The notes beneath the pieces are model-generated. The model saw only the letters and a list, made by a program, of their open reading frames with translations. It was not told the origin of the DNA and ran no database searches. A program made the position numbers and the translations under genes. Below, in pieces: positions 57,069 to 60,451 of a stretch of 64,000 nt of DNA. Each line of letters opens with the position of its first letter. The first letter of the stretch is position 1. The stretch is from Streptomyces sp. NBC_00414 (GTDB lineage Bacteria > Actinomycetota > Actinomycetes > Streptomycetales > Streptomycetaceae): NCBI RefSeq assembly GCF_036038375.1, contig NZ_CP107935.1:7316001-7380000 (forward strand), given 5' to 3'.

Positions 57069-58133
57069 ATGAGTGCTGTGACCCCCGCTGGAGGCGACTT
57101 CGCGGCGGGCCGTTCCTGGCCCGCCCTCCTGAACGGCCTGCTGGACGGGCGCGACCTGGGCGCCGACGACACGGCCTGGGCGATGGACCTGATCATGCGG
57201 GGCGAGGCGACCGACGCGCAGATCGCCGGGTTCGCGGTGGCCCTGCGGGCCAAGGGCGAGACCGTCGAGGAGATCTCCGGCATGGTGCGCACGATGTACG
57301 CGCACGCCAACGTGATCGAAGTGCCGGGTGACACCGTCGACATCGTCGGCACCGGCGGTGACGGCGCGAAGACCGTCAACATCTCGACGATGTCGGCCGT
57401 CGTCATCGCCGGTACGGGTGCCAAGGTCGTCAAGCACGGCAACCGCGCGGCCTCCTCCGCGTCCGGCGCCTCGGACGTGCTCGAAAAGCTCGGCGTGAAC
57501 CTGGAGCTGACTCCGCGGCGGGTGGCCGAGGTGGCCGAGGAGGCCGGGATCACCTTCTGCTTCGCCGTGAAGTTCCATCCGGCGCTGCGGCACGTGGCGG
57601 CGGCGCGCGGGCAACTGGGCATCCGCACCGTCTTCAACTTCCTCGGTCCGCTCACCAACCCGGCCCGGGTGAAGTCCCAGGCCGTCGGGGTCGCGCACGC
57701 GCCCATGGCGCCCATCGTGGCCGGGGTCCTTGCCGAGCGCGGCAACTCCTCGCTCGTCTTCCGCGGCGACGACGGGCTCGACGAGCTGACCACCACGTCC
57801 ACGTCCCGGGTGTGGGTCGTACGGGACGGGAAGGTCCACGAGGAGGCCTTCGACCCGCGTGACGTGGGGATCGAGCTGGTGCCGGTGGAGGCGCTGCGGG
57901 GGGCCGACGCCTCGTACAACGCGGATGTCGCGCGACGGCTGCTGGGGGGTGAGCGGGGGCCCGTGCGGGAGGCGGTGCTGCTGAACTCGGCGGCGGCGCT
58001 GGTGGCTCTCGCGCCCGGCTCCGGGTCGCTCGCCGAACAGATCCGGACGCAGATGGCTCGCGCCGCGGAGGCGATCGATTCCGGGGCGGCGTTGCGGACG
58101 CTTGAGCGGTGGGTGGCCGCGACCAACGCGTAG
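57069..58133 (+). CDS. trpD: anthranilate phosphoribosyltransferase
   Basis: A 354-aa enzyme of tryptophan synthesis, joining anthranilate to PRPP. Family motifs: the PRPP-binding [18 protein letters not shown] (about 93-110), [18 protein letters not shown] and [15 protein letters not shown] 57069 has AGGAG well placed; a TAGGGT box lies about 40 bp upstream. No other trp gene is adjacent. Its presence after qcrB is a recurring actinobacterial arrangement. Confidence 0.95.
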
Positions 58134-58311
58134 GCGCTGGCGCTGGCGGTGCGGGGTGCGGGTTGGCGGGGCGGGCGCAAAAGATCGCGCCGTTCCCCGC
58201 GCCCCTGATCCGCCGGGTGGGGGTGGGCCCACACGATTGTGCCGTTCCCCGCGCCCCTGATCCGCCGGGCGCGCCCCTAGGGCCCCCTAGGGGCGCGGGG
58301 AACTGCGCAAT
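58134..58311. repeat. family-1 repeats and AvrII-centred dyad after trpD
   Basis: The spacer between trpD and the riboswitch promoter holds two inverted family-1 copies (about 58187-58208 and 58232-58258, each followed by CTGATCCGCCGGG) and one direct copy near 58289. GCGCCCCTAGG (58271-58281) and CCTAGGGGCGC (58286-58296) form an 11-bp hairpin. It probably ends trpD transcription. Confidence 0.75.
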
Positions 58312-58379
58312 CGGGGGTTCGGGGGTGGAGCCCCTGAGGTGGGGACCAGGTCGGTCGTCCCGGTATGCGGACAGGGCGG

Positions 58380-58407
58380 TTGCGGTCGGATCATCGTGTG
58401 GCATGAT
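58380..58407 (+). promoter_or_regulatory. promoter of the SAM-IV riboswitch transcript
   Basis: TTGCGG (58380-58385) and CATGAT (58402-58407) are 16 bp apart. The expected start site falls about 7 nt later, just before the GGTC that opens the riboswitch P1 stem at 58415. Confidence 0.6.
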
Positions 58408-58414
58408 GCTGGCA

Positions 58415-58520
58415 GGTCATGAGTGACAGTCAACAGGCCCCGGCCGACTGTCCGGCAACCCTCCGTCCGTGGCGGGGTGCCCCGGGTGAAGACCAGGTCG
58501 TAGGCAGTGAGGTCTACGGC
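58415..58520 (+). promoter_or_regulatory. SAM-IV riboswitch
   Basis: S-adenosylmethionine-sensing aptamer of the actinobacterial SAM-IV class. P1 is GGTC (58415-58418) with GACC (58491-58494). The conserved ATGAGTG follows P1, then a P2 arm (ACAGTC ... GACTGT), CCGGCAACCCTCC, a P3 arm (CCTCCGTCC ... GGCGGGG), GTGCCCCGGGTGAAGACC, and the class-specific 3' hairpin CGTAG ... CTACG (58499-58518). The match is to the consensus as I remember it. It controls a hexapeptide ORF and a class-V aminotransferase. Confidence 0.9.
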
Positions 58521-58526
58521 AAGCGC

Positions 58527-58572
58527 GGACCCCTCACCGCTCGCTGGAGCGGACACACCAGGGGTCCTGGTC
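58527..58572 (+). promoter_or_regulatory. putative riboswitch expression platform with competing stems
   Basis: GGACCCCT (58527-58534) pairs with AGGGGTCC (58560-58567) and encloses CCGCTC / GAGCGG. Alternatively GACCAGG (58491-58497), which contains the 3' strand of P1, can pair with CCTGGTC (58566-58572). The two options share 58566-58567 and cannot coexist. CCCTC (58531-58535) can also mask GAGGG of the Shine-Dalgarno sequence at 58577-58583. No U-tract follows, so control is more likely translational. Confidence 0.5.
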
Positions 58573-58589
58573 GTTCGAGGGAGCCTTTC

Positions 58590-58610
58590 ATGAGCAAGCG
58601 AATGCGATAG
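58590..58610 (+). CDS. hexapeptide leader ORF (MSKRMR)
   Basis: Six codons and a TAG stop, with a strong Shine-Dalgarno sequence (GAGGGAG) ending 6 nt before the ATG. It sits between the SAM-IV riboswitch and the aminotransferase gene, whose ATG is 98 bp further on. It contains two Met codons, which suits a methionine/SAM-linked leader, but no attenuator is evident after it. It may instead act as a ribosome-entry element. Translation is inferred only from the ribosome site. Confidence 0.45.
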   Translation: MSKRMR

Positions 58611-58708
58611 GGCGCCGAGCCCCACTTCCGCGTACCCCTTTCACCTTTCCCGTGCTGAGCCCTGTCCGCTCGCACGGTGATCTCGCCTGCCTCTCACGGG
58701 AGTTCGCC

Positions 58709-60088
58709 ATGTCTGTCTCCACCACCGCCGCCGACCGGTCCGCCCACTGTGCCACCGGCACCGACGGGCCCCTGGCCGTCCTGGGCCGGGACGTCACCGT
58801 GCCGCTCGTGACCGGCGGAGAGGTCACCTACGCCGCGCTCGACTACGCGGCCAGCGCCCCCGCCCTCCAGCGCGTGTGGGACGACGTCGCCGCGTACGCC
58901 CCGTACTACGGCAGCGTGCACCGCGGGGCCGGCTACCTGTCCCAGCTCTCCACGGACCTCTTCGAGAACGCCCGCAGGACCGTGGGGGAGTTCCTCGACT
59001 GCCGGGACGACGACGAGGTCGTCTTCACCCGGTCCACCACCGACTCGCTCAACCTCCTCGCCGCCGCCCTCCCCGCCGACTGCCAGGTCTTCGTCTTCGA
59101 GACCGAGCACCACGCGTCGCTGCTGCCGTGGCAGGACGCCCGGGTCACCTACCTCAACGCCCCGCGCACCCCGGCCGAGGCCGTCGCGACGCTGGAGCGG
59201 GCCCTCGCAGAGCGGGACCCCTACGGTCCGGCGCTGGTGTGCGTCACGGGCGCCTCGAACGTCACCGGTGAGCTGTGGCCCGTACGGGAACTGGCCGCCG
59301 CCGCCCACGCGCACGGCGCCCGCATCGTGCTCGACGCGGCCCAGCTCGCGCCCCACCACCCCGTCTCCGTACAGGAGTTGGACGTGGACTGGGTCGCGTT
59401 CTCCGGCCACAAGCTGTACGCGCCGTTCGGCTCGGGCGTGCTCGCGGGGCGCTTCGACTGGCTGCGCGAGGCCGACCCGTACCTCGCCGGCGGTGGTGCC
59501 TCGAAGAAGGTGTCGCGGCGCGTGGACGGCGGCGTGGACGTCGAGTGGCACGAGAGCGCCGCACGGCACGAGGCCGGTTCGCCCAACGTCATCGGCGCCT
59601 ACTCCATCGCCTCCGCCTGCAAGGCCCTCACCGAGGCCGGCTTCGACACGCTGGTCGCCCGTGAGCAGCAGCTCGTCGCCACCGTCCGCCGGGGCCTCGC
59701 CGAGGTGCCGGAGGTCCGCGTGCTCTCGCTCTTCGGTGACGACGCCCCGCGCGTCGGCGTCATCTCGTTCGTCGTCGACGGCTGGAACAGTTCGCACTTC
59801 GCCGCCGCGCTCTCCGCCGAGTACGGCATCGGCGTCCGCGACGGCCTCTTCTGCGCCCACCCGCTCGTCCGTACGCTCCTCGGCAGCGACCCGCAGTCCC
59901 AGGGCGAGTGCGGTGCCCCCGAGGCCGCCCCCGGCGAGAAGTCCCTGAACGCCATCCGCGTCAGCTTCGGCGCGGGCACCCCCGACGAACACGTGAACCG
60001 TTTCGTGGGCGCCGTGAAGGAACTCGTCAAGAACGGCGCCAGCTGGACCTACCGCACGGAGAACGGGCGCTGCGTCCCGGCCGCGTAG
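58709..60088 (+). CDS. class-V aminotransferase, cysteine desulfurase-like (SufS/CsdA type)
   Basis: A 459-aa PLP enzyme. The PLP lysine is K235 in AFSGHKLYAPFGSG; YGSVHRGAGYLS, TEHHASLLPW and DAAQLAPHHPV match the class-V fold. VRDGLFCAHP (C382) aligns with the persulfide cysteine loop of SufS-like desulfurases, so sulfur transfer is plausible. The SAM-IV riboswitch places it in methionine/sulfur economy, repressed when SAM is plentiful. The start is ATG 58709, with GGGAG 6 nt upstream; the open frame to 58652 is excluded. Alternative: another C-S lyase of sulfur salvage. Confidence 0.88.
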   Translation: MSVSTTAADRSAHCATGTDGPLAVLGRDVTVPLVTGGEVTYAALDYAASAPALQRVWDDVAAYAPYYGSVHRGAGYLSQLSTDLFENARRTVGEFLDCRDDDEVVFTRSTTDSLNLLAAALPADCQVFVFETEHHASLLPWQDARVTYLNAPRTPAEAVATLERALAERDPYGPALVCVTGASNVTGELWPVRELAAAAHAHGARIVLDAAQLAPHHPVSVQELDVDWVAFSGHKLYAPFGSGVLAGRFDWLREADPYLAGGGASKKVSRRVDGGVDVEWHESAARHEAGSPNVIGAYSIASACKALTEAGFDTLVAREQQLVATVRRGLAEVPEVRVLSLFGDDAPRVGVISFVVDGWNSSHFAAALSAEYGIGVRDGLFCAHPLVRTLLGSDPQSQGECGAPEAAPGEKSLNAIRVSFGAGTPDEHVNRFVGAVKELVKNGASWTYRTENGRCVPAA

Positions 60089-60169
60089 AGGATGGGCCCC
60101 GTAAGGGGCGCGGCCAGCCACGACGGCGCGGCACCCGACACACAGCCCGCACCCCCTCCCCGGAGAGGG

Positions 60170-60451
60170 CTAGTTGTCGCCCCCGATGGCGAACGCGGCC
60201 TCCAGGTCGTGCTGCGAGTACGTGCGGAACGCCACATGCGTGTCCGTGCCCTCGACCCCCGGAATCTTGCTGATCATGCCGGGAATGACGTCGGCCAGAT
60301 CGTCATGAGCCTTCACCCGGACCATGGCGATCAAGTCGTACGTCCCCGTGACGGAGAAGACCTCGCTGACGCTGTCCAGCGCCGCGATCGACTCGGCGAT
60401 CTCGGGAATCCGGTCCACGCTGGTCTTGATGAGCACGATCGCGGTGATCAC
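60170..60451 (-). CDS. stand-alone Lrp/AsnC ligand-binding (RAM) domain protein
   Basis: A 93-aa protein that is all RAM/AsnC_trans_reg domain (MITAIVLIKTSVDRIPEIAE ... VTGTYDLIAMVRVKAHDDL ... PGVEGTDTHVAFRTYSQHD), lacking the DNA-binding half of Lrp regulators. Such proteins form rings that bind amino acids or modulate full Lrp partners. GTG 60451 has GGGAGA upstream and overlaps the rhomboid stop by 4 bp (GTGA), so it is translationally coupled to it. Confidence 0.9.
   Translation of the reverse strand: MITAIVLIKTSVDRIPEIAESIAALDSVSEVFSVTGTYDLIAMVRVKAHDDLADVIPGMISKIPGVEGTDTHVAFRTYSQHDLEAAFAIGGDN

Follow-up and report, generated by a model that had tools for sequence, protein, structure and literature searches.

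The locus and its features

The stretch of DNA analysed here (64,000 nt; referred to as the window) covers positions 7,316,001-7,380,000 of the forward strand of NZ_CP107935.1, from the single-contig, 10.35 Mb genome of Streptomyces sp. NBC_00414 (GCF_036038375.1). It harbours a riboswitch of the S-adenosylmethionine (SAM) class SAM-IV, followed by a six-codon open reading frame (ORF) encoding MSKRMR and by a cysteine desulfurase-like gene, and the subject of this report is the control that the riboswitch may exert on the enzyme through this mini-ORF (Table 1). The gene trpD lies upstream of the aptamer, and the class V pyridoxal phosphate (PLP) enzyme gene downstream is followed on the opposite strand by genes for an AsnC-domain protein and a rhomboid protein. 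The aptamer matches the whole RF00634 model with 113.4 bits against a gathering score of 38 and is, on this covariance match, a genuine SAM-IV riboswitch for which SAM binding is predicted. Within it, CGCGG is expected to form a pseudoknot with the P3 loop (58467-58471) when the aptamer is bound.

The enzyme gene starts 98 nt past the stop codon of the mini-ORF. Its product matches Aminotran_5 (252.2 bits) and reaches 252.7 bits with the SufS model TIGR01979, below the cut-off of 475.1, so that it is SufS-like rather than an assigned SufS-type enzyme. The motifs SGHK (as FSGHK) and VRDGLFCAHP are kept in all 80 orthologues compared, the latter presumably holding the Cys expected for group II cysteine desulfurases. 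The available part of a study on S. lividans likewise names the gene behind SAM-IV a cysteine desulfurase (PMC8079986). An earlier reading of this DNA (the original prediction) had proposed a SAM-IV aptamer, a hexapeptide with a very strong ribosome site and a desulfurase-like gene with a ribosome site of its own 98 nt further on, and each of these elements was recovered at the positions listed in Table 1.

Table 1. Features of the SAM-IV leader and the enzyme gene, in positions of the window
Feature	Position	Strand	Basis
SAM-IV riboswitch aptamer (RF00634)	58415-58531	+	cmscan, 113.4 bits, model positions 1-116 of 116
P1 3' strand GACCAGG, also the 5' half of anti-P1 stem H2	58491-58497	+	pairs with 58566-58572
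CGCGG, overlapping H1 by GG (58527-58528)	58524-58528	+	sequence; the aptamer match extends over it
5' half of stem H1 (GGACCCCT)	58527-58534	+	pairs with 58560-58567
Anti-Shine-Dalgarno strand CCCTC, SAM-bound form	58531-58535	+	pairs with 58577-58581 in the predicted bound fold
Hairpin H4, ACCAGG/CCTGGT (58557-58562/58566-58571), SAM-bound form	58557-58571	+	pair probabilities
3' strands of H1 (AGGGGTCC, 58560-58567) and H2 (58566-58572)	58560-58572	+	sequence, pairing counts
Shine-Dalgarno sequence of the mini-ORF, GAGGGAG	58577-58583	+	such a motif before 154/154 CGAATG-N3-stop elements
Mini-ORF MSKRMR (ATG AGC AAG CGA ATG CGA TAG)	58590-58610	+	sequence, conservation
Frozen codon pair CGA ATG	58599-58604	+	117/118 Streptomyces SAM-IV genomes; 8/42 metY leaders
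Hairpin GGGC/GCCC, its first base the G of the stop codon	58610-58622	+	predicted stem, conserved
Pyrimidine-rich spacer, candidate Rho-loading region	58623-58690	+	composition
Shine-Dalgarno sequence of the enzyme gene, GGGAG	58698-58702	+	sequence
Class V aminotransferase-fold, SufS-like (cysteine desulfurase-type) enzyme	58709-60088	+	profile matches, motifs

Conservation of the six-codon ORF

The exact pattern RTGAGCAAGCGAATGCGNTAG is present in 83 of 121 Streptomyces genomes, once in every case, while its reversed control pattern gave no match in them; a comparison by hand places all 83 sites at most 100 nt from a SAM-IV aptamer. SAM-IV was matched in 118 of these genomes (three are without a match), and the 35 SAM-IV genomes devoid of the exact pattern carry a CGAATG variant in every case except L175, bringing the mini-ORF or a variant of it to 117 of the 118 sampled genomes with SAM-IV. 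In L203 the Arg-Met pair encoded by CGA ATG (RM) is doubled. Grouped by the identity of the downstream enzyme, the RM mini-ORF is found in 162 of 174 unique leaders at 65% identity or more (Streptomycetaceae), with MQMMR in its place in one of the remaining 12 (L273), and in none of 35 leaders with a more distant enzyme (<65%); the latter count omits unplaced loci, three of which have enzyme matches, all below 65%. Loci below L290 left unplaced by the aptamer pattern are L169, L230, L244, L254, L260, L261, L264 and L269, and L203 (at a contig end, without an enzyme match) stands outside the 174.

Codon usage was tallied in 162 hexapeptide leaders chosen by CGAATG, an in-frame start and a Shine-Dalgarno (SD)-like motif, a set that overlaps the 162 RM leaders above and is a separate tally. 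Starts are exclusively NTG (GTG 136, ATG 19, TTG 7); codon 2 is AGC in 129, with ten others, and codon 3 is AAG in 128, CAG in 28 and another codon in six. Codons 4 and 5 are CGA and ATG in all 162, although they were part of the selection and their invariance is better judged by the genome survey and by the leader count at 65% identity or more. Codon 6 is CGA in 104, CGC in 30, CGT in 19, CGG in one and another codon in eight, i.e., its third base varies and Arg is retained in 154, and the stop codon is TAG throughout (162/162). Furthermore, a scan that ignored start codon and SD, and in which each locus contributed its first CGAATG-N3-stop up to 170 nt from the aptamer, yielded 154 unique elements, all of which have an in-frame start and an SD-like motif; two codons separate start and CGA in 152 of them, one codon in one and three in one. 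As CGA accounts for 33 of 2608 Arg codons (1.3%) in three window genes and 80 orthologous enzymes, its use at codon 4 and in 104 of 162 sixth codons suggests that either a slow codon or the nucleotide sequence as such has been selected. On these patterns the MSKRMR-type ORF looks translated, and its conservation goes far beyond chance.

The nucleotides might, on the other hand, be held constant as an RNA structure or protein-binding site, in which the GGGC/GCCC hairpin is enclosed by pairing of AUGCG (58602-58606) with CGCGU (58629-58633). This hairpin, which begins in the stop codon, has a stem of at least four pairs in 161 of 164 leaders as against 41% of mononucleotide shuffles, with covariation not above shuffle. 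At least three of the five outer bases pair downstream in 120 of 164 predicted leader folds, the variable third base of codon 6 falls in an internal loop, and the G of TAG lies in the inner stem, which could keep TAG fixed and tells against a purely coding reading as well. Nevertheless, the outer helix is paired in only 63.9% of cells, the two helices together show no covariation above shuffle, and a structural role leaves the NTG-only starts, the universal SD-like motif, the in-frame spacing and the frozen CGA outside the stem unexplained, which makes this explanation very improbable. The outer stem (AUGCG/CGCAU) was also considered as a universal terminator and was discarded on the same pairing figure.

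The expression platform

The platform pattern was matched by 140 leaders, one of them (L203) spuriously, and the remaining 139 were modelled. Both stems named in the original prediction exist as written: H1 comprises eight pairs and H2 (GACCAGG/CCTGGTC) seven. Seven counted positions of H1 are paired in 138-139 of the 139 leaders (one being CG in 107, TA in 19 and TG in 13), and the positions of H2 are paired in 123 to 139 of them. Together with the MSKRMR-type ORFs, both stems are conserved, and the conservation expected of the leader by that prediction was found.

The roles assigned to the stems had to be revised. They had been regarded as mutually exclusive, with H1 tending to form when SAM closes P1 and able to hide the SD of the mini-ORF. 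H1 and H2 overlap solely at 58566-58567, and the fold predicted for the window without SAM holds both, stacked; across the 139 leaders, free-state minimum-energy folds contain H1 in 68 and H1 with H2 in 58. With the SAM-bound state modelled as the fold of the sequence past CGCGG only, and the SAM-free state as a fold in which the P1 3' strand was free to pair, H1 has a mean probability of 0.07 bound versus 0.54 free, while the third hairpin, H4, has 0.74 versus 0.31. The form predicted to hide the SD is H4 together with CCCTC paired to 58577-58581. A comparison of energies with H1 forced or forbidden pointed the other way, preferring H1 in the bound state in 138 of 139 leaders; it was judged mis-specified, other pairs being removed as well, and pair probabilities were used instead.

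Pairing of the SD with upstream sequence averages 0.63 in the bound and 0.33 in the free models and exceeds 0.5 in 128 versus 37 of the 139 leaders, whereas downstream pairing of the SD is 0.36 free and 0.13 bound. The energy needed to open the SD core is higher in the bound state by more than 0.5 kcal in 118, 119 and 86 leaders at three tail lengths, and higher in the free state in 7, 10 and 20 (119 versus 10 at tail 21). Shuffling of the P1 3' strand (47 of the 139 leaders) raised free-state masking from 0.34 to 0.49, the bound value being 0.64. A first measure of the mean unpaired SD (0.27 bound, 0.39 free; 175 leaders, duplicates included) agrees with the switch model. The anti-P1 and SD-masking stems of a putative SAM-OFF platform are conserved, and a switch is predicted in most modelled leaders, although not by every measure and not in leaders without a mini-ORF; SAM-bound masking of the SD is likely for this lineage, but not proven.

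In nearly all sampled Streptomyces, the SAM-IV switch appears to control the start of the six-codon ORF and not the enzyme gene directly; in L013 and L175, which have no mini-ORF, it is the enzyme that uses the ribosome site after the platform. The proposed design of a riboswitch acting through a mini-ORF on a C-S cleaving enzyme is therefore retained as regards a conserved, translated-looking mini-ORF ahead of a desulfurase-like enzyme, and is corrected in its stem assignment.

The spacer and probable premature termination

Between the mini-ORF and the enzyme gene, the next SD-plus-start motif follows the mini-ORF stop at 46-280 nt (median 90; 79 orthologous loci scored), a distance too great for stop/start coupling. 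The intervening RNA is rich in C: the 40 nt beginning 25 nt past the C of CGA have C at 0.47 and G at 0.18 (164 leaders), and C exceeds twice G in 130 of 164 spacers versus 2.3% of windows upstream of the aptamer. Rho prefers C-rich, G-poor RNA. For S. clavuligerus, the available part of PMC8269248 describes a premature transcript that carries a SAM-IV riboswitch ahead of a class V PLP enzyme and whose drop in reads from leader to gene is among the steepest; this leader is a probable orthologue of the one in the window. The C-rich spacer and the published premature termination favour transcription attenuation over stop/start coupling. The available part of PMC8079986 further describes 21 of 22 Rfam leader elements, the SAM-IV leader being in the list, as highly transcribed.

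An attenuator with an intrinsic terminator was rejected, as none was found at 58100-60400 and the stop-codon hairpin lacks covariation; enrichment of T after this hairpin is modest across leaders (0.28 vs 0.14), and some relatives show compact hairpins with T-rich tails. Apart from this, a hairpin (CGTGCTGAGC...GCTCGCACG) is predicted in the spacer at 58648-58680; by eye, it recurs with altered sequence in many relatives and is absent in others.

The same spacer lends itself to the opposite reading, wherein translation of the mini-ORF represses the enzyme, either because release at UAG exposes the C-rich RNA to Rho or because reinitiation is blocked. The stop codon does stand shortly ahead of the spacer, and the metE upstream ORF (uORF) of Mycobacterium tuberculosis provides a precedent in the part of the source available (PMC11260477). 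However, L013 and L175 use the ribosome site for the enzyme itself. With a SAM-OFF mini-ORF, SAM would moreover activate the enzyme, opposite to the usual sign of SAM riboswitches, and repression by the mini-ORF is accordingly considered unlikely.

CGA-ATG mini-ORFs before metY and other SAM-IV leaders

Related mini-ORFs recur behind SAM-IV in other actinobacteria. In an unrelated set of 42 distinct metY leaders behind SAM-IV (identified by a motif at the start of the protein; thirteen later and eight earlier loci were not placed and are left out of the count), eight have an in-frame CGA-ATG mini-ORF, seven a Cys mini-ORF without CGA-ATG and 27 neither. The NCBIfam family O-acetylhomoserine sulfhydrylase was confirmed for six of the eight RM cases, L322 being outside the library test; in L143 the ORF tested matched no family and the metY motif lies further downstream, a miss probably due to a wrongly chosen start. 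Seven of the eight peptides contain Cys, encoded mostly by TGT (MTCRMRR, MTCRMPF, MSCQRMPRR, MRSCRMHTR, MCIRRMCCR, MCCCRMN and MRCCCRMKRG), and the eighth, MNHHRMRR, has none. CGAATG is not the commonest 6-mer in these leaders, as 29 6-mers reach its count of 8, and its frequency alone is not decisive; all eight cases are nevertheless in frame.

These peptides raise the possibility that the mini-ORF is a second sensor, i.e., a Met-tRNA attenuator (Cys-tRNA in the relatives) in which the ribosome stalls at AUG after the slow CGA when Met is short, so that SAM and Met-tRNA signals are combined. An internal Met codon is present in RM mini-ORFs by definition, Cys codons are added in seven of the eight before metY, and L273, having lost CGA, retains two internal Met codons. 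As far as the sources were available, the metNIQ leader peptide of S. lividans ends in CMCRRMCAF (PMC8079986) and Cys leader peptides are published in actinobacteria (PMC1262725). Against these stand the weakness of a single Met codon for a classical attenuator and the presence of Cys in only three of 162 hexapeptides. Searches for a CMCRRMC-coding pattern gave no match in 81 Streptomyces genomes (exact) or in the genome of the host strain (one mismatch), and for the motif sharing with S. lividans metL the available part of PMC8079986 is the one source. A second sensor is hence regarded as possible, though doubtful.

The host genome has a second SAM-IV copy (L002, C1:1812826-1812972, 70.9 bits), and the short ORF downstream of it (MTRRLHIDLLRVSSAY) resembles Cys leader peptides, yet has no Cys codons. 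CGAATG is absent from the stretch read around this copy and from those read around the Streptomyces-metH and Streptomyces-metK RNAs, both of which are present in the same genome. Divergent SAM-IV pairs about 145-180 bases apart occur in Streptomycetaceae genomes, for example, G148:C1:1096541-1096651(-)/1096796-1096906(+) and G138:C2:180862-180972(-)/181152-181262(+). At L140, L206-L209, L257, L270, L271, L278 and L284, the ORFs after SAM-IV are longer and contain a VDL/IDL stretch and, near the end, a Cys, and a homologue of the window enzyme was not found at these loci. In the window itself, GC-rich segments of the ccgttccccgcgcccctgatccgccggg type are repeated in the gap between trpD and the riboswitch (58175-58320), one of them inverted (by eye).

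Proposed mechanism

The reading preferred here, to which a probability of about one half is given, is that a SAM-OFF riboswitch gates a slow six-codon ORF, the translation of which lets transcription reach the enzyme gene. Without SAM, the P1 3' strand would pair with 58566-58572 (H2), stacked on H1, leaving the SD of the mini-ORF open. The translating ribosome would then linger at CGA-AUG-CGA-UAG, covering the stop-codon hairpin and the beginning of the C-rich spacer; less premature, probably Rho-dependent, termination would follow, and the enzyme would be made. With SAM bound, P1 would close, the freed strand would fold as H4 and CCCTC would mask SD bases, so that ribosome entry would be blocked and the transcript would end early. 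SAM riboswitches are usually SAM-OFF, and the sign of the coupling is derived from this general logic and from L013 and L175, where the ribosome site of the platform serves the enzyme.

Several observations weigh against this mechanism. With a short tail, the two states show no significant difference in mean unpaired SD core (0.26 vs 0.29, p = 0.12), which makes the switch model dependent on the measure chosen. Switching is slight in the 42 leaders without a mini-ORF (0.57 vs 0.52; bound higher by 0.2 in seven, free higher in four), none is predicted for L013 (0.63, 0.55) or L175 (0.60, 0.62), and the middle pair of H4 is mismatched in 25 of 139 leaders. Moreover, 20 of 160 unique mini-ORF leaders do not have the H1 3' motif searched for; 19 are Streptomycetaceae that keep the mini-ORF without this platform and the twentieth is the metY leader L226. 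On the side of termination, a role of Rho is proposed from spacer composition, an intrinsic terminator (GC stem plus T run) did not appear in the scan of 58100-60400, and the S. clavuligerus leader is a presumed orthologue.

The leaders that keep the SD and the RM mini-ORF without the H1 3' motif are L005, L014, L051, L065, L081, L095, L117, L174, L179, L194, L201, L204, L275, L276, L277, L279, L280, L286 and L287.

Beyond the window, CGA-AUG, read slowly just ahead of a stop, could tentatively mark a distinct class of SAM-gated actinobacterial mini-attenuators of 5-10 codons, which would sense charged Met-tRNA (and Cys in metY leaders) and integrate SAM with sulfur amino-acid supply; this extension is speculative.

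Relation to known systems and significance

The leader shares with known SAM-IV riboswitches (RF00634) the full-model aptamer and downstream genes of sulfur metabolism, and differs in that the first ribosome site belongs to the mini-ORF and not to the regulated enzyme. Interplay of a riboswitch with a short uORF is described, in the accessible part of PMC11260477, for B12 riboswitches of M. tuberculosis, where the uORF is needed for ppe2 and suppresses metE. The window leader resembles the ppe2 type in having a short ORF (translation of which is predicted here) with a ribosome site between aptamer and gene. In contrast to ppe2, which relies mainly on overlapping stop and start codons (termination-reinitiation), a gap of 98 nt intervenes here; six codons, the frozen CGA-ATG and the other ligand class are further differences from these uORFs. 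With the actinobacterial cys leader peptides (PMC1262725) and S. lividans metL (PMC8079986), in so far as these sources were available, it shares a short ORF before sulfur genes, Cys or Met codons near the stop and the absence of a clear intrinsic terminator, Rho having been suggested for cys (PMC1262725). Neither source, in its available part, places such peptides behind SAM-IV, and the Streptomyces hexapeptide is, unlike the cys leader peptides, mostly without Cys (none in the window), so that it does not qualify as a Cys leader-peptide attenuator.

Riboswitch-uORF interplay (B12) and Cys leader peptides are, in short, known, while the SAM-IV-gated mini-ORF and the RM motif are apparently new: neither these nor MSKRMR was found described in the literature searched, seen in part, which does not establish their absence from print.

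The finding places a conserved ORF, below the usual annotation size, genus-wide between a known riboswitch and its gene. If translated, this mini-ORF would make a transcription attenuator out of a translational switch, and would offer a clean case in which to test how premature termination in GC-rich bacteria is set by the choice of codons (CGA-AUG) and by ribosome occupancy. More generally, an overlooked mini-ORF may in some cases come first behind SAM-IV riboswitches of actinobacteria.

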